From the NCBI GenBank assembly GCA_016906335.1, contig JADEYG010000007.1, forward strand, positions 372,001 to 436,000: DNA of 64,000 nucleotides. Direction: 5' to 3'. The notes beneath the pieces are model-generated. The model made no database searches and was not told the origin of the DNA. It saw nothing but the letters and a program-made list of their open reading frames with translations. Of this stretch, positions 9,829 to 32,543 are shown one piece after another. This DNA comes from Novakomyces olei (taxonomy: Eukaryota > Ascomycota > Novakomycetes > Novakomycetales > Novakomycetaceae). How positions within the stretch are numbered: the first letter of the stretch is position 1; the number at the start of each line of letters is the position of its first letter. The translations under genes and the position numbers were made by a program.

Positions 9829-10482
9829 TTGCGGGAAATTGCTTTCTCAAATTTTGGTAGACTCAAATTCAGGTGAATGACAGAGGAGCCAATGGCCGTA
9901 CGTTGTCGCGATAATTATGGACAACGCGTTTACCCGTGCGTGAAATCACTGATTGAATTTACTATACATTATTGAATTTACTATACATTATTGAATTTAC
10001 TATACATAAATCAATATAAGCCCGTACAAGATTGGGTAGCATCCTTGCGCGATATAGATATAACGCAAATGTTATAGGATACGTGATCTACCCACGCTCA
10101 GCCAACGCTTATCCCTGCTCTAGATTTCGATAGACCCACACTGCGATAACATAAGCTACCCTTTATTGAGCGCCTTCATGAGCTGTCGGCTGTGTACGCG
10201 AGTTAAACAGCGCCGTAGCGCAATAGCGCCTGCGCTATGATCATTTGTGCCTCTCGCATTTCGTTGATTTAACTGTACGGCAATTCTGTGCCCAAAACCT
10301 GCGGTTCGTTTCTCTTTTCTGCGTATCGGCAGTTCAACAAATCAGCACGTGCGCCCGACAAGGAAAGCGCCAGGTTTGTTGTTTCGTTACTCGTTTTTGA
10401 TTTCCACTCGGCCTTTTCACCCGTATTTTCTCAAGGCCATATAAGTGGCCGTAGCGGCCACTAACGAATTAAAGCGTCAATA
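9829..10482. other. Divergent promoter region between GLTP gene and SPO71-like gene
   Basis: It includes an ACGCGT at 9924-9929, 96 bp upstream of the GLTP start, and three tandem copies of a 19-bp unit, ATTGAATTTACTATACATT, at about 9952-10010. The rest shows no coding pattern. Confidence 0.55.
9952..10010. repeat. 19-bp tandem repeat, three copies
   Basis: The unit ATTGAATTTACTATACATT occurs three times head to tail, nearly perfectly, in the promoter between two divergent genes. No known site was recognised in it. Confidence 0.9.
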
Positions 10483-21997: not shown

Positions 21998-23759
21998 TTG
22001 AGTGGAATCGGCTCGTGCCATAATAACTAGTACTAGTATAATTGCACAGCGCGGTTTAGCGACTGTATTTGTCTTTGTAGCAGTCGGCTACCCATTATTA
22101 AGCAACACTAGTGGTAAATCTATTAGAACTGGTTACAAGTCTGTGCTCAGTGGATGGATCAATGAATAAACCAGAAAAGCACGACTTGGGATTAAAATTA
22201 TCAGGATCACTGGTAATTTTAAGTAAAGATGAATTAAACGGTGATCAAGGTTTAACCTCAACCTGAAGCAGACTTGAACTGTTGGCACTTTGTAGAGTTT
22301 TGTCGCCCATTTGGGGCCATCGGCCATCGGCCAACGGCCAAAGCCAGCAACAGCGCTATAACCCGGAACGATTTGCATCCAACAATCATAGACAGTCTGT
22401 TGGTAGCTTTACGCTCAGAGAGAAGATTACGCACTCATTCAAGGCAGACTAATCTCCGTGTCGTGATATTTGCATTAAACAATCTATCCTCATCATTGCG
22501 CGCCGAGTATGGCAATTAATTACAATTATTGAACATTTTTCCAGTGGTGGCCTAAACACTGATTGCTCGTGAACAAACGGATTTGCACAAGTAATGTATA
22601 GAAGAGTAAACCGTAATTTGTATAGGAAAATCAAACAAATGGACAAAGCAATGCAGTACTGCCATAATAATGCACATAATAATGCACTACTGACAAGTAA
22701 TCCATGAGAGCGAAGATTCAAAAGACAATTTAACGCAAACAACACAATCACTAAAAATACTGAAAAAATTAAAGTAATTGTAATTGTAATCGGCGTGCAG
22801 GTACGCGCACAACTTGAGTATACGGCAAAAGCGTTAAACGCGATCGGCAAGAGGGAGAAATGCCCAAGCCACTGTTTAACCTATAACCCACATTCTTTCA
22901 CGTGTCCCGTGGCCCTAATATAAAAATCGGGAATTTTTTTGCTCTTGATTATAGGCGCTGAATTAGCGCACTATCCGTGTAGGTGGCAGCCTGTCAGCCA
23001 TTTGCACACACTGATCACCCAGTGACGTGAATACATGTATACCCAGACTCTAATTTGTAAATATGAAATCCTTAATACTCTCACGCCGCGCCTTTGCAAG
23101 TCACGACCGTCAGTTCTTGACCGTTCGTTCCTTTTCTTTCCTTATATGGAGCTGGTTAAATAAGGAAGAAAGTACGATATTGGACCTACGAATCCCAAAC
23201 TTTGCACGCCATCCATCCATTGTATAGAATATGGTATTTTTAGCAGTGCGAATGTGCTTTAATCCTCTATTTCAGTGATATTTTAGGCCTTTTCACGCCA
23301 TACTGCCGCGATTAGTCCACAAAAAGGTGCCGCGAATAAGGCACAAGTAACCAACCCGCGAGCGGTCAATATTTCCGGTAAATAACTGTGTCTATTATAC
23401 TAAATCAATGTACGATATATTCCTACGCAGATCGGCATACCGGTAAGCAATCGTCGCTTGCCAGGGGCGAACAAGTAAATATGCCCACGCGTCAGCGCGT
23501 CCACGCTCGCCATTAAGCGACGCGCGTTTCGTATAAATAAGCAAAGGCATAAATAAACATGCACATCAACCCAAACACTCTCCCACGCTTCACACTCTTT
23601 ACCGTCGCTCTTTACTCACGAACAAGCTTCGTCCTTGTTCGTCCTTGTCAGTCGTTGTCTCGTGTCACAACTGCCGACTTTTATCTCTATATTGCCCAGA
23701 CTGACGCTTAAAACGATAAAGTGCAATACAATTTAAACAAACAAGCCGCACAGAAAAGA
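21998..23759. other. Long intergenic region, no gene recognised
   Basis: 1.76 kb between catalase and the SOD-like gene. Short frames on both strands lack recognisable protein features. A short GGCCATC/GGCCAAC repeat lies at about 22315-22343. Near 23480-23515 the sequence becomes GC-richer with ACGCGT (23487), then a TATA box and a CT-rich leader. Confidence 0.5.
23532..23539 (+). promoter_or_regulatory. TATA box of the SOD-like gene
   Basis: TATAAATA lies 228 bp upstream of the chosen ATG and is followed by a pyrimidine-rich tract typical of strongly expressed fungal genes. The leader would be about 190 nt. Confidence 0.45.
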
Positions 23760-24647
23760 ATGCTTTCGTCTATTGCCCTCGTCGTAGCGGCAGCGGCCGT
23801 GGCTAATGCACAAAGCACAACGCCTACAAGAACAACAGAGACCGAACTGCCTTATGCGCCGATTAATACTCAGGCTGCCTCTGCTTCGGCCTATGCTACG
23901 CTCCCCTTTGCCGGCACAGACACAGACATCAATGCCCGCTTTGATTTCCAGTCGCTTGCAAACGGCACTGTGCGCATTGGCCTTACTCTCTCTGACCTGC
24001 CGAGCAATCTCTCCTCTATCGGCTACTCTATCAACCAGCACGGAGTCCCCTCTGACGGCGACTGCTACCTGACAGGTCCCCGTCTCGATCCCGTATGGCG
24101 CGGGCAGACACCCGACTGCGATATGAGCGACCCGGGCTCTTGCCAGGTCGGAGACCTTTCTGGCAAGCACGGTAACGTGTCCGAGAGCAGTCTTACGGGC
24201 CGTAATACCTTTAGCACCGGCTATCTCGACCGCTACCTTTCCCTGAGCCGTGAATCAGCCTCGTTTATTGGCAACAGATCTATTGTCCTGTGGGAGGGCA
24301 ACAATACACGCATTGCCTGTACCAATATCACAATTGTCAGCTACGGAGAGCCGTCTAACTTTACTCTGCCGGCTTCTTCTTCCCGGCCAGCAGCTACTCA
24401 CACTGCCTCCGTAGGCGGAACTAACGGCTCTTCTTCAGGACACAATGGCACTCGTGTAACCGGCACTGGCACCAGTACTGGAACCAGTACTGGCATCAGT
24501 GCAAGCAGTACTGGAGGCAGTAGCGGAACCTCACCAGCCTCTGCGCCAGCCTCGTCTAGCAGCAGCGAAAGCGCCGCCAGTGTACTGTCTTTGTCTCTCT
24601 CATCTCTGGTCCTCGCTGTCGTTGCAGCCACTTTAGCGTTTGCTTAG
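23760..24647 (+). CDS. GPI-anchored Cu-only SOD-like cell-surface protein, probably without copper site
   Basis: 295 residues from ATG. Residues 1-18 are a signal peptide (MLSSIALVVAAAAVANAQ). The central domain matches fungal extracellular Cu-only superoxide dismutases (Candida Sod5 type): RFDFQSLANGTVRIGLTLSD, SDGDC, SCQVGDLSGKHGNV, RYLSLSRESASFIGNRSIV, NTRIACTNI. A Ser/Thr/Gly-rich linker and a C-terminal hydrophobic segment (VLAVVAATLAFA) form a GPI-anchor signal. The copper-binding histidines appear lost: YHIHVNPV of Sod5 is YSINQHGV, KAHFNP is GPRLDP, and VVHSAD is VLWEGN. The conserved Arg and cysteines remain. A structural or ligand-binding role is more likely than superoxide removal. 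The alignment is from memory. Confidence 0.75.
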   Translation: MLSSIALVVAAAAVANAQSTTPTRTTETELPYAPINTQAASASAYATLPFAGTDTDINARFDFQSLANGTVRIGLTLSDLPSNLSSIGYSINQHGVPSDGDCYLTGPRLDPVWRGQTPDCDMSDPGSCQVGDLSGKHGNVSESSLTGRNTFSTGYLDRYLSLSRESASFIGNRSIVLWEGNNTRIACTNITIVSYGEPSNFTLPASSSRPAATHTASVGGTNGSSSGHNGTRVTGTGTSTGTSTGISASSTGGSSGTSPASAPASSSSSESAASVLSLSLSSLVLAVVAATLAFA

Positions 24648-24978
24648 AATGATGGGCGGGCGTGCGTCTTGCGATACTGTGCCTTTTGTGTAATAAAGTA
24701 GTCTTTGGTTTTGAGCTGGTTGTAATTGCATTGCCGTCTATGACTGGCGAGTAGAGGGAATTGTATACTTGTTTATATATTTCTATAGTAGCAACTGTAG
24801 TACGGCATTCTGACGCGTAACCTCCGCAACCTCCGCAAACTGCAACTCCCATGTTCAATCGTTCAATCCCACTCTAAAACTTTCCACATCCCTGTTAGTC
24901 CTTTTACCAGTCAAAAGGCAATCGTAGAGTCAAACGCGACAGGGTTAAAGCCTTGTGCCATACTCTACGTCGGCGAGA
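24648..24978. other. Convergent 3' intergenic region
   Basis: 331 bp between the SOD-like gene and the TNR3 region. No gene or RNA was recognised; a short GTTCAATC direct repeat near 24853-24870 is not part of a tRNA. Confidence 0.5.
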
Positions 24979-27062
24979 TCATTTCTGCTCCAGTTCAAGC
25001 GACAAGACGAGCGGTGTATCTGTCTGCACGTCCACTTCCAAGTACCGCTGCGGTTGAGCAAACTGGTTGCACGAAGAAACGAGGCCAGTGAATGATAATT
25101 CGGAAACGTGCTCATTCAAATTCCACCGTGCTCCTCGTGTAACTGCCCTGGTCGGCCCGTAAATAGGTAACAGTCCAAAATGCCGTCCAACAGAAACGTG
25201 CTTGTTCTCAGCTGCCACAGGTAGCTGTGGCTGAGGCACATTCGCAGCGTCGACGACCGTCTTTGCTCGCCCAGGGCAGAGCAATAGAAGGTTATCCTTG
25301 TCACAGGCTATCAGCTTGTACCGCGGATGTGTCTTGTACCAGGCGTACATCTGCGCCAGGGCACCAGCAGTATGATCAAAACGGCCGCCTACTGCCCCAC
25401 AAACAAGAACTTGCCAGGGCGGCAGTTCTTTTTTATGGCCCTGCTCACGCTCACATACAATCGCGTCCAGCAAGTTTAATGCCTTTGTGAAATCAGTCGA
25501 GTACTGGTCAGTGTCGGGGACTATACGGGCGCCTTTGCCTTCGTAATACGAAACAATATTCAAACAGACAGAGTCCATGTCCCCCGTTACACCATCAGGG
25601 ATCAGTGCTGGATCCATTGCGTTCAGCCAGTTGGCTCCGCCATCTGCGCAAATGCGTATACTCGCATTCGCCCATAGATCACGTACGACATTATGAGGGA
25701 AAGGCAGCCGCTGGTTAAGGAATACAATAGCCATATTGTCTACTTTGGCCCTTGAAAATAGACGCATTGGCTCAATAAGTGGCTCCGGGGACAATGTCCG
25801 GTCTGCGCTTTGCTCCTGCCCATGTTTCTCTTGCCCATAGTTCTCTTTGACCGAAACTTTATCAGAGTCAGCTCGGCTAGTAACGGAACTGCCTATAGGA
25901 AATTCCATTTGCCGGTGGATGCGCCGACAAAGTTCAAGGTAATCGGGCTCGTTTTCCTGTGTCAAGATGCCATGACGGATGAAAAAGTCGAGTAAAACAA
26001 GTACAGTATTTGGTTTGAATTCACCGGCATGAATGTGCTCGATTACCTGTTGAACCGTCATCAACTTGAACTCGGCCACTTCTGTATCGTGCGGACGTGG
26101 CACAATACTCGTGTGAAGTGGGAGGTCATACACATATTGAATCTAAATTTAGAGGAAGAAGGAAAAAGGGAAGAAAGAAAAGAAGAGAAAAACCAAAACT
26201 AGGGAAGACGAAAAGAAATTGATCAAGACAAACCTTACGAATAAAAGTAAAGGAAAACTAATTGAACAAAAAGAATTGACTCAAAAAAAAGCCTGTGAAT
26301 GACAAATAGCAACCCAGAAGAAATTGGTGTAATTATGTGTAAAAATAAAAATGGTCCTAGTGATCATATGTAAAATAAAATAAGTAGTATAAAGACTTAC
26401 TTCCGGCTGAAGAAGACCAGACTCTCCACCACTAGCGGCTCCGCTCTCCGTATAGTAACCAACAGATCCAGTCTCTTGGACGTTTCGGGAAACGAACTCC
26501 TCTTCGAGACTCGCTTCTTCTCCGGCTTCCTTGATGATTGTGTCCCGTGGCGAAAACCCGTAGCCAATCCCGCCAGCTACGGAATTGTCGAGCATATTGG
26601 GAAACGTTTGTTTTGTTGATGATCTTCTAGGCACCCAGATTTGTAGAGGGCGGGCAGCAAAAGCCGGGACATAGGCTGTCATGTGAACTCCATAAGTCTG
26701 CACGCCAAATAACGGAGTTGCTGCCCGTTCCATATGGAAACAAATTGAAGTTTGCGAATCGTAAACGGGATACTCCTCGTCTCTCCAGCCTTTTAATATG
26801 TTAAACTGCTCATCCGCCCGCCATTTTTGCAAAACCGAAGCAATAGCTGTGCTTCGAGCCTCGCAATCGGCTGCTATTAGCTCAGGTGTGAAGGTTATTA
26901 TACGGAGCTTTGCATCAACCGACCAGACTTTGGGATGCTGCCCAATAACTTTAGAAACTTTTATAGGAATATGTCCCAATGTGCGGCCCTCAAATTGAAA
27001 ACGAAACATTTGTTTCATCATAATCCTGTAACCCCGAGTACCATGGTAGGGGACACAATCGC
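24979..27062 (-). CDS. TNR3: Tnr3-type Nudix hydrolase-thiamine pyrophosphokinase (apparently continuous with TRM11)
   Basis: Exons 26401-27062 and 24979-26142 (intron 258 nt). The first encodes a Nudix region: FRFQFEGRTLGHIPIKV, LQIWVPRRSSTKQTFPNMLD, and the Nudix-box remnant KEAGEEASL. The join gives LLQPEIQYVYDLPL. The second exon carries thiamine pyrophosphokinase: CADGGANWLNAMDP, GDMDS, TDQYSTDF, GAVGGRFDHTAGAL. Fission-yeast Tnr3 has this same fusion; the kinase makes TPP and the Nudix part removes damaged TPP derivatives. Exon 1 starts with TGC GAT split across an intron (27063-27220) whose upstream exon supplies FLDCVNL, giving FLDCVNLCDCVPY, the usual family start. That exon is the end of TRM11 in the same frame. 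An independent start at ATG 27072 (MYIGDCVPY) is possible but loses this block. Confidence 0.85.
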
Positions 27063-29067
27063 CTATATACATATTAGATATTCACCATCTTTCATCTGAT
27101 TTATCATTTGTATTATTCTACTATTGATTATTTTAAACGAGCTTGTTTTTTGTTTTTTTTTGTTGCTTTCTTTTATTTCAATGTATCTCTTTTTAAAATT
27201 AAATCGAAACGTTATCATACACAAATTAACGCAGTCGAGAAAAGAAGCTCTTTTCGGCTGGGAAGAAGAAGGAGATCCGTAAGGCTGTGCTGTGAATACT
27301 TTTTCACGGAAACGTGAAAGCGTCAGCCCGTCTGCCTGTAGAGAATGCTCAACTTTGCCTTTGTTCTCTAATGGCTCTGTAGTCTTTTCGTAAACCAATA
27401 AAATTCGCGACCCTAAATTGGAATTAGTTAAGAACACATAGAATAATAGAGAGGAACAATCGAGTTGAGTAGAATTGCGTGAAAGCTTCAAAAATCCAAA
27501 GTAAATACATTTCCCAAACTGCTGGACTCCATGGGTGACATGACGCAAACATGAGTGAGATGGAATCTCGTCCAGCTTGAAATCCTCAGTTATAAATGGC
27601 ATCCAATATACAAGACGCCCGCCACGTTTAAGTCGTTGAGCAGCAAACTCCATAAGGTCGCCTATGACATCTGGGAGCTCGTAAAACTTTGTTGGCGGAT
27701 AGTAGTCAGGAGACCTTGAAAGCAATTAGATAATGAGAAAAGATACTTATCATACTCGTGAGCAAAAGTTCCAAAGCTTTCCATAAAAACGGGCCCTCTT
27801 TTTTGTTTGCTCGGATCACGACGTCCTAGAGTCTTGGCGCCTGCTCGTACGCCATAGGGAGCTATCATGTTAGACTGGCTATACTAGACTCCTTGATGAG
27901 AAACTTACGGTCTGTTACGATTGCATCCAAGCCAAGATCCTTGCGTAAAGGGCAGTGCTTTATATCCGCGGTAAAAAGACCCACAAGTCGGTCTTGTAAG
28001 CCATACTGATCCATGTTTGTTTGGACAGAGCCCCTTGACGGCTTTCCACGGAACTGGCGGCCATCAATATCAGAACCTATGGTATTAGCTTGCATGAATA
28101 ATCACCCAGGGAAACATGGCTCGACGAGCCAATTGCGACATAAAGTTCACGAAATTCCGGCCTAGCAAAAAAGTCTTCTACAAACAAAACCGAACATTGC
28201 AAAGACAATCAAGCATCTTCAATTTGTATAATGAAAAGATTGAATAGAAGAAGAGTACCAATAACAGACGCGCCAAAATAGGCACAAGTGTACAAAAAGC
28301 TGCCGGTGCCCGTAAACGGATCATACAAAAGTTTTCCAGGCGCACTCAATGCTAGTCGCGCAGTCACTAGCGAAAGCTCGGCCTCAAACGTGGTAGTCCC
28401 CCTGTATCCGCGTTTCTTTACATCAAAAAGGTCGGCCACATGCGTTGATCCGACGCACAACTATACATGAGAATCGAACAAGAAAATGTTCCACATACTC
28501 TTCTGCCTAGATAAGCCCTTTGAAGTACGTGGCTGTCATCGTGCTCCAACATGACCGCAAAACGCTGCTCCGGGTTTTGCATAACGATAGGTCCGCTAAA
28601 GCCCATAAACGCGAGCGATTCATATAATTCGCGGCGTTCCTCTGGCGATATACTGCGTTTGAACGATTGAACATCAAGGCGGAATGAGGCTTCCGAGTAT
28701 TGTCCCTTAACTTTTTTAGCATTTTAATGGTGGATCTTCATACAAACAAAGGTTTGGAATCGCGCAAGACGCTCTCACGCAATTCCGGCAAATCGTGAGC
28801 CTGCCCCCATAGTTCGTAAACGGCAAAAGTGCTCACAGACTGTGAGCACACTTTTACGGCAGCCTCGGCGTTGGAGAATCCGACAATCCAGAACGGCGAC
28901 TTTATTTTGTTAGCTCTTATCAGCAAATTGGACGCCTAGTTATGGTATACATCGTTCCGGTACTCGTGCACATCAATGCCAACTGAGATAGTATCAGCGA
29001 TTGCCTGTAATTCAAGTGCTCGAAACTCGGGATTCCGTAACGGTTGGTGGACGAGGAATCGTTCCAT
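27063..29067 (-). CDS. TRM11: Trm11, tRNA guanosine-10 N2-methyltransferase catalytic subunit
   Basis: Eight exons: 28951-29067, 28744-28899, 28499-28705, 28259-28460, 27909-28076, 27756-27861, 27509-27714 and 27221-27412 (introns 51, 38, 38, 182, 47, 41 and 96 nt). The spliced protein follows yeast Trm11: MERFLVHQPLRNPEFRALEL, EYRNDSPFWIVGF, GFSGPIVMQNPEQRF, KKRGYRGTTTFEAELSLV, YDPFTGTGSFL, IGSDIDGRQFRG, IVTDPPYGVRAGAKTLG, GGRLVYWMPF and FGKWSRILLVYEK. It holds the SAM-binding site and DPPY catalytic motif; with Trm112 it makes m2G10 in tRNA. There is no stop after the normal C terminus (LSRFREKVF). The frame continues to 27221 and, by splicing, into the Nudix region, or, if that intron is kept, to a TAG at 27063-27065. 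The long frame upstream of 29067 lacks family similarity, so the inner ATG was chosen. Confidence 0.9.
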
Positions 29068-29141
29068 GTCTACTGGCGCATGCTGCACAACGCTACGTTC
29101 AATGTATTCAGAGTCTTGTATACGATAAGAGCCTTTGCGCA

Positions 29142-29168
29142 TAGGGTTTACATTGAGTTTAGGGTTTA
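29142..29168. promoter_or_regulatory. Telobox pair in the TRM11/V-ATPase-f divergent promoter
   Basis: TAGGGTTTA (29142-29150) and TTTAGGGTTTA (29158-29168), read on the minus strand as AAACCCTA boxes, lie 75-100 bp upstream of TRM11 and about 200 bp before the V-ATPase gene. Confidence 0.45.
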
Positions 29169-29365
29169 TTTCTGTAGTATTACGTGTGGACATTAAACCA
29201 ACACATATTGGCACGGTGCCCGTAACATTATCAGCCGTAATAACGGGACACTCTTGTCTATGTATGTCATGCTCAGGCAAATAAGTCTTCGAGTCCAGTC
29301 TATTTAGTGCAGATATCGGAGCCGACCTTTATGCGAGACCTTCTACCATCGTATAGAGCATTGCA

Positions 29366-29694
29366 ATGAAGCCGATTATTCCGCCAGGCCTGGGTGAGTC
29401 AGCTACCAGTACTTTGTACTAACAGTGGTAGCGTACTGCTGCACCGTGTTATCCGCAATTGGCATTGTATTCTTGTCTATAATGGCTCTCTTCTTCTTCA
29501 CAGGCGCAGAGTCAGTAGTGTCAGACCTTGACGGCACAGACGTCACACACGGCGAAGCGGGGTGGACTTGTATCAAGGCTGTTATCGTCTATGCTGTAAG
29601 TATATCTGCTAGACGTTGTCTCATTTTATAGGTATTCTTTGTCGTATGCGGCTTACAGAGTCTTGTGTACCGACGCGGACAAATATCCATATAG
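29366..29694 (+). CDS. V-ATPase subunit f / RNase K-like small membrane protein
   Basis: Three exons: 29366-29393, 29426-29595 and 29632-29694, with introns of only 32 and 36 nt; 86 residues. The sequence MKPIIPPGL, then AYCCTVLSAIGIVFLSIMAL, and VFFVVCGLQSLVYRRGQ matches yeast YPR170W-B (CCTVLSAFGVVILS, VFFVFCGFQ) and animal RNase K, which is a Vo-sector subunit of the vacuolar proton pump. Two transmembrane helices flank a short loop with DLDGTDVTHGEAG. Intron 1 ends in ACTAACAG and intron 2 in TTTTATAG. Joins are supported by frame and by the conserved VFF-C-Q block. It is divergent from TRM11. Confidence 0.85.
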
Positions 29695-30346
29695 GCCGAT
29701 GATTTGAAAAAAGCCTGGTATCGGCTTTTACTGTACCCGTGAACGAAGGTAATTAATACGAATCGCGGTTGGCGTGGAAAATTGGGGTTTTTTTTTGCGG
29801 ATATGAACATTGTGGCTTGATATTTCTAGAGCTGTGATTGATCTGGAAACAGGCATGATGCCGAGGACTGTCGTAAAGAATGGGTAGACAGTTGTTGGAT
29901 ATTTAAAAACGTAATTAATGAAGCATCTCTGATTGATATGGCCGTCGGATTTATAGTTATCGTGCCGCGGCTTGGTCTTATCATACAAGACCATGCTCCG
30001 TTCCTATGGGGGATATATGGCCTGCGAATGGTAAAAATGATTGAAGTGCCTTCTATACCTGTGATTAGCTTAGCCATTAGTTAAACCGTTCGCCACAAAA
30101 GTTGTCATGTAGGGATTGTATCAATCAATGTTACCTACTGCGTACTATTGTTATTGAATAAACTTGGATGGAAAGCACTCTTTCGCGCCCTCTTCAATCT
30201 AAATACAAATAAAAAAGTGCACTGGAGCTAAACAATAAAATGTGTATGATAATTTGCTAATTGCTGAACTTCATAAGCTTTTTCAATTTGATGTAAAACC
30301 CTAACTAACCCTAATATGCAGTAATTAAAGCTTTACATTATTTATT
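29695..30346. other. Intergenic region before the RhoGAP gene
   Basis: 652 bp. A small hairpin (AAAAGCC...GGCTTTT, about 29708-29729) lies just after the V-ATPase gene. Short frames on the minus strand show no family similarity. The telobox pair ends 32 bp before the next start codon. Confidence 0.5.
30295..30315. promoter_or_regulatory. Telobox pair before the RhoGAP gene
   Basis: AACCCTAACTAACCCTAA lies at 30297-30314 within a longer match. Seventeen bases are identical to the pair upstream of ACL4 (15325-15341). It lies very close to the start codon, so it would sit at or near the transcription start. Confidence 0.5.
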
Positions 30347-32543
30347 ATGTATCAAAACACCGCGTTTCACGTGATTAATATATTCGCGTCAAGGCCCGAG
30401 GCGATGCTACAAAAGGCACGACTGTGGGCCAATGTAACGGACCGAGTCCGGAAAGATTCCACCATATCTACGCCAAACCTTACCGCGTCAGATTTGGAAA
30501 GCTATCGTGCAATCGCCCTGCGCGTAAGTATTACTATTACATGTTTTAAACTAAACAACATTTAAGGTTGTTGATAGAGCGGGAAAGGATCAGAGAGGAA
30601 GGTCCCAGGTCGTTCTTAATGTTTGCTATTTTCCGGATCCACATGAATATGACTACAATGCTCTCCTTCCTCTCATTCTAGAAATTATCGATGCGAGCGT
30701 AGACGAACAGGAGTATATCGGCATAGGTAGGAATCAGCAATCTCCTTCCCAATTTACAAAGTTATAATTATATGACTCCTTTTTTTATTTTGATTGCCCT
30801 TAAAAAAAGGGCCTTTTAATCAACATTATACTTACAATAGTATTTTGTGGTGGCGGTGAATATAGGCCCAGCTGGTCATGGCTCATTCAAGCGTACAACT
30901 CTTTGGGCCGCAAGTACAGGAAGAACTTGAAAGCCCTGTACCTTGTTCATTCTACATGGTATGAAACCGATAAATATAAACTGTCTTGCTCCCGCAATTT
31001 AAGCTATTGGATGCTTATCTTTGTTTAATTCTACTTTGTTTCATTTATAATAGTTCAGCTTAGGTTGTGCGATCGTTAACAATACAGGTGGGTGCGCGTT
31101 TTATTCGAAATCATGTCAAACATAATCTCGCCAAAATTTGCGCGTAAGGTTAAACATATTGATACCCTTTCGGAGCTGGCAAAATATGTTTCTTTTCTAG
31201 ATGTCGAAGTGCCACCCAAAGTATACGAGCACAATTTACAGTACGAGCCAAGAATTGAGCTCCCCCCACAATACCTCCAGTGCCCGCTCTTTGGTGTACC
31301 CTTGCGCCAGGTTGTTCAAAAACAAGAGCAAAATTCTACAATCGCGCTTCCTCGCCGGCTAGAATCGGTTTTTTCTTACCTTCACTTTAAAGGCACAATG
31401 GAAAAAGGCTTATTTCGCCTTTCACCATCCGCAATGCTGCTTGAGCAAGCCAAGCAGGCTCTTGATCGTGGCAACAAGATAAATTTACAAGACTATGGTC
31501 CACATATTGCAGCAGGGCTTTTACGGCAGTTTCTACGCAATCTGCCGGAGCCTTTGTTCCCCGGTACTTTAGAGACGTATGAAACCTTCCGCACAAGTGC
31601 AACTGCCATGTTCAAGGCTCCACTGGAAACCAAAGAGTATGAAATTCAACACAAAATTTTGCCCATGTTGGGCCCGAATGAACGTTTGCTCTTTGGCAAA
31701 TTAGTTTTTCTACTGCACTCGATCTCACAAAGGGCAAAGTACAATCGTATGGACGCTGGTAATTTGGCTACTTGCATTGCCCCATCACTCATCTGCCACC
31801 CTACAGATCCAGTCAAGGATATTTCAACATCAAACACGATTACTGGCGGCCTTGGAGTTGCTCTGGTTGTGTGCATTGAGCATCCAGAAATTGTGGACAT
31901 AGATTTAGGAGGAAAAGATGATCAGACACCGATGACGAAACCATCTATTCTCGTATCGCCGCCAGCAGCGGAGCCAATGCTAAGAAACGCCTCTGAGCCG
32001 ATCATGGAGCAAGAAAAGGATCCGTCTAATGAAATGGAGACAGAAACGAGGACATCAAGTGATACCGACAGTTCACCAAGCGACTCGGGTCTACAAAAAG
32101 TTTCTAGTGCTAATACGATGCAGAAGACCAACCAGTCTGTGTCCGAAGACAATTTTAAAGACTTGAAACTCTCCGGACAGAAAGCGTACGCCAAACGATC
32201 AGCCTCAGTTTCTGGCGGAGAGAAAAATGTAAAGTCTTCGACATTCATGCAGAATGCTTTTAATAGCGATTTATTTACCAAACCTCCGCCCTTGCCTGCA
32301 ATAACTCCGGGTGAAATGCCGCGTCTAAGAAATGTTTCGCCAGAAAGAAAATTACAGACTCTCACACAGCCGGAGCCTTATGTACTACGACGGATAGCGC
32401 AAGAAAATGCTACAAATGACAATCGAAATGGTGTTGTAAAGGACTTACGGTCTATATTTGAAGAACGCAGCCGTGTAGCTCGAGCTGCTATTTCAAGAGA
32501 CCCTACGGCTGCTTCTTCTCGATGTTTTAGTAATGGGACTTGA
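30347..32543 (+). CDS. CRAL-TRIO (Sec14-like) plus RhoGAP protein, p50RhoGAP/Ecm25 type
   Basis: Four exons: 30347-30523, 30567-30726, 30841-30958 and 31088-32543 (introns 43, 114 and 129 nt); 636 residues. Residues about 50-185 form a CRAL-TRIO/BCH-type domain (VVDRAGKDQRGRSQVVLNVC, then LKALYLVHSTWWVRVLFEIM). Residues about 220-390 are a RhoGAP domain with the arginine finger in GLFRLSPS (Arg262) and the LLRQFLRNLPEPL and NLATCIAPSL motifs. The rest is Ser-rich and disordered. The same order occurs in animal ARHGAP1 and yeast Ecm25. It should stimulate GTP hydrolysis on a Rho/Cdc42 GTPase at membranes. All three joins fall inside the lipid-binding domain and restore its frame. Confidence 0.88.

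Follow-up and report, generated by a model that had tools for sequence, protein, structure and literature searches.

In fission yeast, a Nudix hydrolase and a thiamine pyrophosphokinase (TPK) form a pair within one chain, Tnr3, and we know of no Trm11 in front of the Tnr3 of Schizosaccharomyces pombe. Trm11 itself, the catalytic subunit of the tRNA (guanine10-N2)-methyltransferase, usually ends soon past a FREKYF-like motif, with a median of 12 residues after it in the 84 of 118 homologues where this pattern was found, and the Trm11 of Schizosaccharomyces japonicus is a separate protein that ends five residues past FREKYF. Here we describe a locus of the ascomycete Novakomyces olei, within a 64,000-nucleotide stretch of contig JADEYG010000007.1 (positions 372,001 to 436,000 of the forward strand; 45.1% G+C; henceforth the window), in which TRM11 and a Tnr3-type gene share one reading frame. 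The arrangement has in common with S. pombe Tnr3, as we know that protein, a DUF4743/Nudix part followed by TPK, and it differs in carrying Trm11 in front; compared with other Trm11 proteins, the chain continues for 632 residues past the motif.

In excerpts of its genome report, N. olei is placed beside Schizosaccharomyces, a new class is proposed for this single species, and a genome of 14.3 Mb on 15 scaffolds with 43.8% G+C is described and judged to be haploid (PMC7912804). The sequence searched here comprises 14,339,745 bases on 15 contigs, and the taxonomy holds one species in the genus Novakomyces. With a single species in both class and genus, there may be no close relatives to compare N. 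olei with.

Gene model and enzyme domains

The gene was rebuilt from the raw sequence of the minus strand (29067–24979) as ten exons separated by nine GT-AG introns, giving 1059 codons plus a stop and no internal stop codon. This agrees with an earlier note on the same DNA, made from the letters and their open reading frames, which had proposed an in-frame fusion of TRM11 to a Nudix-TPK gene and a joined protein of about 1059 residues: one continuous frame indeed runs through all three enzyme parts. Exons have an A+T content of 47–55%, introns of 62–78%. Pfam searches with the 1059-residue protein returned, each above its curated cut-off, UPF0020 (residues 176–293), DUF4743 (PF15916; 466–573, E 2.8e-20), NUDIX (PF00293; 592–707, E 9.3e-7), TPK_catalytic (PF04263; 826–945, E 2.8e-25) and TPK_B1_binding (PF04265; 990–1050, E 1.6e-8), the last four in the order expected of a Tnr3-type protein.

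The N-terminal part resembles a full-length Trm11. Its best fungal Trm11 matches were 41–45% identical over 88–95% of the query, and 67 of the 78 near-invariant columns (those with a conservation of 95% or more in 118 homologues) are kept. The conserved positions include DPF at residue 207, with the same letters in all 118 homologues, and DPPYG at residue 283, present in 102 of them, which we take to be the S-adenosylmethionine motif and the catalytic motif of Trm11, respectively. In a Trm11 tree, the query fell beside S. japonicus with weak support (90/34) and on a long branch (1.66), a placement flagged as long branches meeting. As a separate observation, TRM11 intron 4 (28077–28258) is long, at 182 bases, and its 3′ half is coding-like in one frame (EDFFARPEFRELYVAIGSSSHVSLGDYS), while the Trm11 residues that flank this intron show no obvious gap.

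The TPK part carries CADGGAN, GDxDS, TDFTKxL and GGRFDH at residues 837, 859, 888 and 924, presumably the TPK motifs. Relatives in the PDB are the MutT/Nudix protein 3dup and, for TPK, the enzymes 1ig3, 3s4y, 1ig0 and others. The Nudix box, whose consensus is given in the relevant excerpt as G-x5-E-x7-REUxEExGU (PMC11784022), keeps the core KEAGEEAS; its upstream Glu is replaced (GYGFSP), and the homologue 3dup has Leu there.

The joint between Trm11 and the Nudix region

Past the Trm11 end LSRFREKVF, exon 8 reads on through TAQPYGSPSSSQPKRA to SFLDCVNL, and exon 9 opens with (C)DCVPYHG. When the intron between them is spliced out, the TRM11 frame meets no stop before the Nudix exon. The donor at 27220 (GTATGATAAC) and the acceptor at 27063 (CTAATATGTATATAG), which the earlier note had joined in phase, were located as described in the raw sequence, and its statement that the minus strand lacks an ATG between the start of exon 8 (27412) and the donor holds for 27412–27221. 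The linker, on the other hand, had been put at 20 residues; we count 16 from FREKVF to SFLDCVNL.

The same note had likened SFLDCVNL to the start of DUF4743 proteins, and this likeness withstood comparison. Fungal DUF4743 proteins carry LDLVNECDNFPY or something similar near their start, which the exon-8 tail matches, and a recognizable version of this N-terminal segment occurs in 12 of 13 DUF4743 homologues that were chosen from 30 matches and aligned. Compared with TPK-less Nudix homologues rather than with a Tnr3, the locus has an LDxVNxCDxxPY-like start of the Nudix region, the first eight residues of which come from exon 8. GT sites were then scored by the nine residues before each GT, as joined to exon 9, against the segments of 12 DUF4743 homologues, which had been picked by hand from an alignment containing the query, with P0014 left out. 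On this measure, the tail at donor 27220 (SFLDCVNLC) was the best of all sites scored: it ranked first among the 207 GT sites from 27150 to 31000 and, itself counted, also among the 6931 found on the two strands of the window.

The splice signals are in keeping with such a joint. With matrices built from the eight remaining introns of the gene, whose own high ranks follow from the way the matrices were made, donor 27220 ranked 4 of 225 and acceptor 27063 ranked 11 of 234. A CTAA motif precedes this acceptor, as it does the acceptors of seven of the eight other introns, and the final 80 bases of exon 8 have an exon-like A+T content of 55%, against 78% in the linking intron. No CTAA was present in the 26 bases examined before each AG site in exon 8 (0 of 16), and nothing visible therefore speaks for an unseen first exon that would be spliced into exon 8. 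Given three parts in one frame, the main motifs kept, no second copy found in exon-by-exon searches and a DUF4743-like exon-8 tail, "appears fused" was the right wording for this locus.

At the level of sequence the in-frame gene fusion is real, and we consider it likely that the locus is one protein-coding gene, TRM11-TNR3, which opens with the ATG at 29067, closes with a stop at 24979, encodes a 1059-residue protein and arose by merger of adjacent genes. The locus probably expresses the fused frame as one protein, which, going by gene structure, may be its only or main product. The primary transcript would start upstream of 29067, lose nine introns and be translated from that ATG to the stop at 24979. 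Together with Trm112, the Trm11 part is predicted to form m2G10 in tRNA; a Ser/Pro-rich linker would tether it to the DUF4743 Nudix hydrolase, which by analogy may clear damaged analogues of thiamine pyrophosphate (TPP), and the TPK part is predicted to make TPP from thiamine. Most likely, the fusion would go back to neighboring genes of one strand that merged when TRM11 lost its stop and, together with it, TNR3 its start, for example through a small deletion; the short first coding exon of TNR3 would have been joined to the last exon of TRM11, with the first intron of TNR3 left in place. The frame, the domains, the main motifs and the homology of the exon-8 tail are observed (Table 1); splicing of 27220 to 27063 in cells, the single polypeptide, its enzyme activities and this merger route are what we infer. 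Trm11, Nudix and TPK are known enzymes, and the arrangement of all three in one chain is, as far as our searches reach, new.

Table 1 Exons, joint and thiamine-enzyme domains of the TRM11-TNR3 locus (positions in the window)
Feature	Position	Strand	Support
Exon 1, Trm11 N-terminus (MERFLVHQPL...)	28951..29067	-	gene model
Exon 2, Trm11	28744..28899	-	gene model
Exon 3, Trm11	28499..28705	-	gene model
Exon 4, Trm11, holds DPFTGTGSF (residue 207 on)	28259..28460	-	gene model, UPF0020 match
Exon 5, Trm11	27909..28076	-	gene model
Exon 6, Trm11; DPPYG (residue 283 on) across the exon 5/6 junction	27756..27861	-	gene model
Exon 7, Trm11	27509..27714	-	gene model
Exon 8, Trm11 end LSRFREKVF, 16-residue linker TAQPYGSPSSSQPKRA and SFLDCVNL (residues 444-451); no ATG	27221..27412	-	
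Linking intron, 158 bases, 78% A+T, phase 1, CTAAT branch-point-like motif	27063..27220	-	
Competing GT donor; joined to 27063, Trm11 would end after 439 residues	27298..27299	-	score rank 10/225
Exon 9, DUF4743 plus the greater part of the Nudix domain, with the core KEAGEEAS	26401..27062	-	Pfam PF15916, PF00293
Exon 10, end of the Nudix domain and TPK to the stop	24979..26142	-	Pfam PF04263, PF04265
TPK catalytic domain	25324..25683	-	sole PF04263 match listed for the genome (14.3 Mb)
DUF4743	26698..27015	-	sole PF15916 match listed in the genome

Points against the fusion and competing readings

A number of observations weigh against a single TRM11-TNR3 gene. The Pfam match to DUF4743 begins at residue 466, on position 15 of the profile, leaving the exon-8 residues uncovered, and a strict version of the N-terminal motif pattern was found in 6 of 27 DUF4743/Nudix homologues. 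That 24 codons stay open past FREKVF is weak evidence alone, and the codon score of the linker (+6.4 over 24 codons) decides nothing, because two short introns score equally well (+7.1 and +6.1, in one frame). The in-phase join is weak alone, too: exon 8 and the intron hold 14 GT sites, and 6 of these preserve one long frame when joined to 27063. The TRM11 frame also remains open through the whole linking intron, for 52 codons, up to a TAG at 27065–27063 right at the acceptor, an openness expected at a frequency of about 0.002 (Markov and mononucleotide shuffles, 50,000 each), and donor 27299 (GTATTC) competes with 27220.

Likewise, no fused relative was seen among 12 matches to the whole protein or among 30 to the Nudix-TPK part, with about 8000 candidates scored per search. 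In neither search did any match hold both Nudix and TPK; even an ordinary Tnr3 was not recovered, and with so few candidates these negatives are weak. The search with the Trm11 protein alone was one in which proteins as long as a fusion could not be returned, and in the literature searched, partly judged by title, no Trm11 fusion to thiamine pyrophosphokinase or Nudix was found. Some Trm11 matches carry unrelated domains, maybe through merged gene models, a reminder that joining neighbors is an easy error. In a Coemansia prediction (P0001), Trm11 lies within a longer predicted protein and is partnered by flavoprotein domains, whereas the partner in predictions from Jimgerdemannia (P0004) and Endogone (P0097) is PF01916 (deoxyhypusine synthase), in each case not thiamine enzymes. 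The combination of Trm11 with PF01916, seen in these two fungi, could be a real fusion.

Three other accounts of the joint were weighed. The first, alternative splicing, is unlikely. The locus would then yield the fusion together with a Trm11-only protein, made either by splicing 27299 to 27063 (439 residues) or by retaining the 158-base intron, which would add a basic tail up to TAG 27063. A stop follows 15 codons after donor 27299, and the resulting Trm11 would have an ordinary length; however, several out-of-frame joins also hit a stop within some 15–25 codons, so this length may be due to chance. Retention would fit the open intron frame, all the more so at 78% A+T, yet three shorter introns of the gene's nine are stop-free as well, which makes the openness less special, and in the Trm11 frame the intron has a codon score close to zero (−0.8 for 53 codons). 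With the intron retained, moreover, the stop would be followed by at least 1.8 kb, and a transcript with such a long stretch is a likely target of decay.

Quite unlikely, in our estimate, is a pair of separate genes that overlap or abut, in which TRM11 would run unspliced to TAG 27063 and Nudix-TPK would begin at ATG 27072 or in an undetected first exon. Within the linking intron, ATGs occur at 27218, 27107, 27095, 27088 and 27072, of which the last shares the frame of the Nudix exon (MYIGDCVPYHG) and overlaps the TRM11-frame stop, and the free-standing Trm11 of S. japonicus would be in line with two genes. But the tail of exon 8, which is the window's best DUF4743 start, would then be a relic and the enzyme would lose its LDxVN-type residues; furthermore, the signals at 27220/27063 are good, exon 8 offers no ATG, and its AG sites have no CTAA just before them. 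Taken together, ATG 27072, the open intron frame and donor 27299, which the earlier note had not mentioned, leave room for a Trm11-only isoform, which may exist, and, with lower probability, for Nudix-TPK to have a start of its own. Very unlikely is a more elaborate idea, in which the 158-base intron would act as a switch: the choice between 27220, 27299 and retention would set the ratio of Trm11 alone to Trm11 tethered to TPK, the sole TPP-forming enzyme found, thereby tuning m2G10 modification and cofactor supply via one transcript.

Finally, removal of the TRM11 stop by an assembly or base error is scarcely credible: several codons past FREKVF are one base away from a stop, but one sequencing error would be insufficient because stop and start would both have to be missing, a second independent change being needed to give TNR3 a start since exon 8 has no ATG, and the source assembly is described in excerpts of the genome report as PacBio at 86x with Illumina correction (PMC7912804).

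Genome context and meaning of the pairing

No second Trm11, TPK or DUF4743 gene was found in searches of the genome, which matched this locus only and, being run exon by exon, can miss intron-split copies; this risk is real, because the PF01170 search missed Trm11 at this very locus. One PF01170 match, on contig C4, was considered as a second Trm11 and rejected, as the Trm11 protein did not match it (E up to 1) and its frame reads by eye like a peptidase. Trm112, the partner of Trm11, is represented by a PF03966 match above the cut-off on contig C9 (profile positions 18–40 of 40). THI4 lies on contig C1 (128146–128865), with a TPP riboswitch about 250 bases upstream (127795–127900). Two other TPP riboswitches scored above the cut-off, on contig C4 (25086–25185) and contig C12 (269494–269605), and frames near them read, by eye, like Thi5/Nmt1 and an amino-acid-permease-type transporter. 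In or near TRM11-TNR3 (24500–30500), no TPP riboswitch was found, all three lying elsewhere in the genome. Trm112 and a riboswitch-preceded THI4 at other loci suggest that both functions are probably in use. Judged by gene content, thiamine synthesis looks active in the host, and TPP formation probably depends on the fused gene.

Elsewhere in the window, a long frame at 10465–14142 matches PF23207 (SPO71 prospore-membrane adaptor PH domain) and PF15404, and a secreted-looking, Ser/Thr-rich frame beside the TPK end (23712–24647) had no Pfam match at 1e-5. Neither a search for plasmid DNA nor one with the 5.8S rRNA family gave a match.

One would not have expected a tRNA-modifying enzyme to be joined to the sole vitamin B1-activating enzyme found in the genome. 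Gene fusions may be a clue to pathways that the partners share, and Tnr3/Nudix appears, in an excerpt of one paper, among the fusions behind a functional discovery (PMC4921024). If the fusion is real, it becomes possible to test whether tRNA modification is linked to thiamine status; if the merger was neutral, the locus would illustrate how, within a single lineage, an essential cofactor enzyme can end up joined to a gene that has nothing to do with it.

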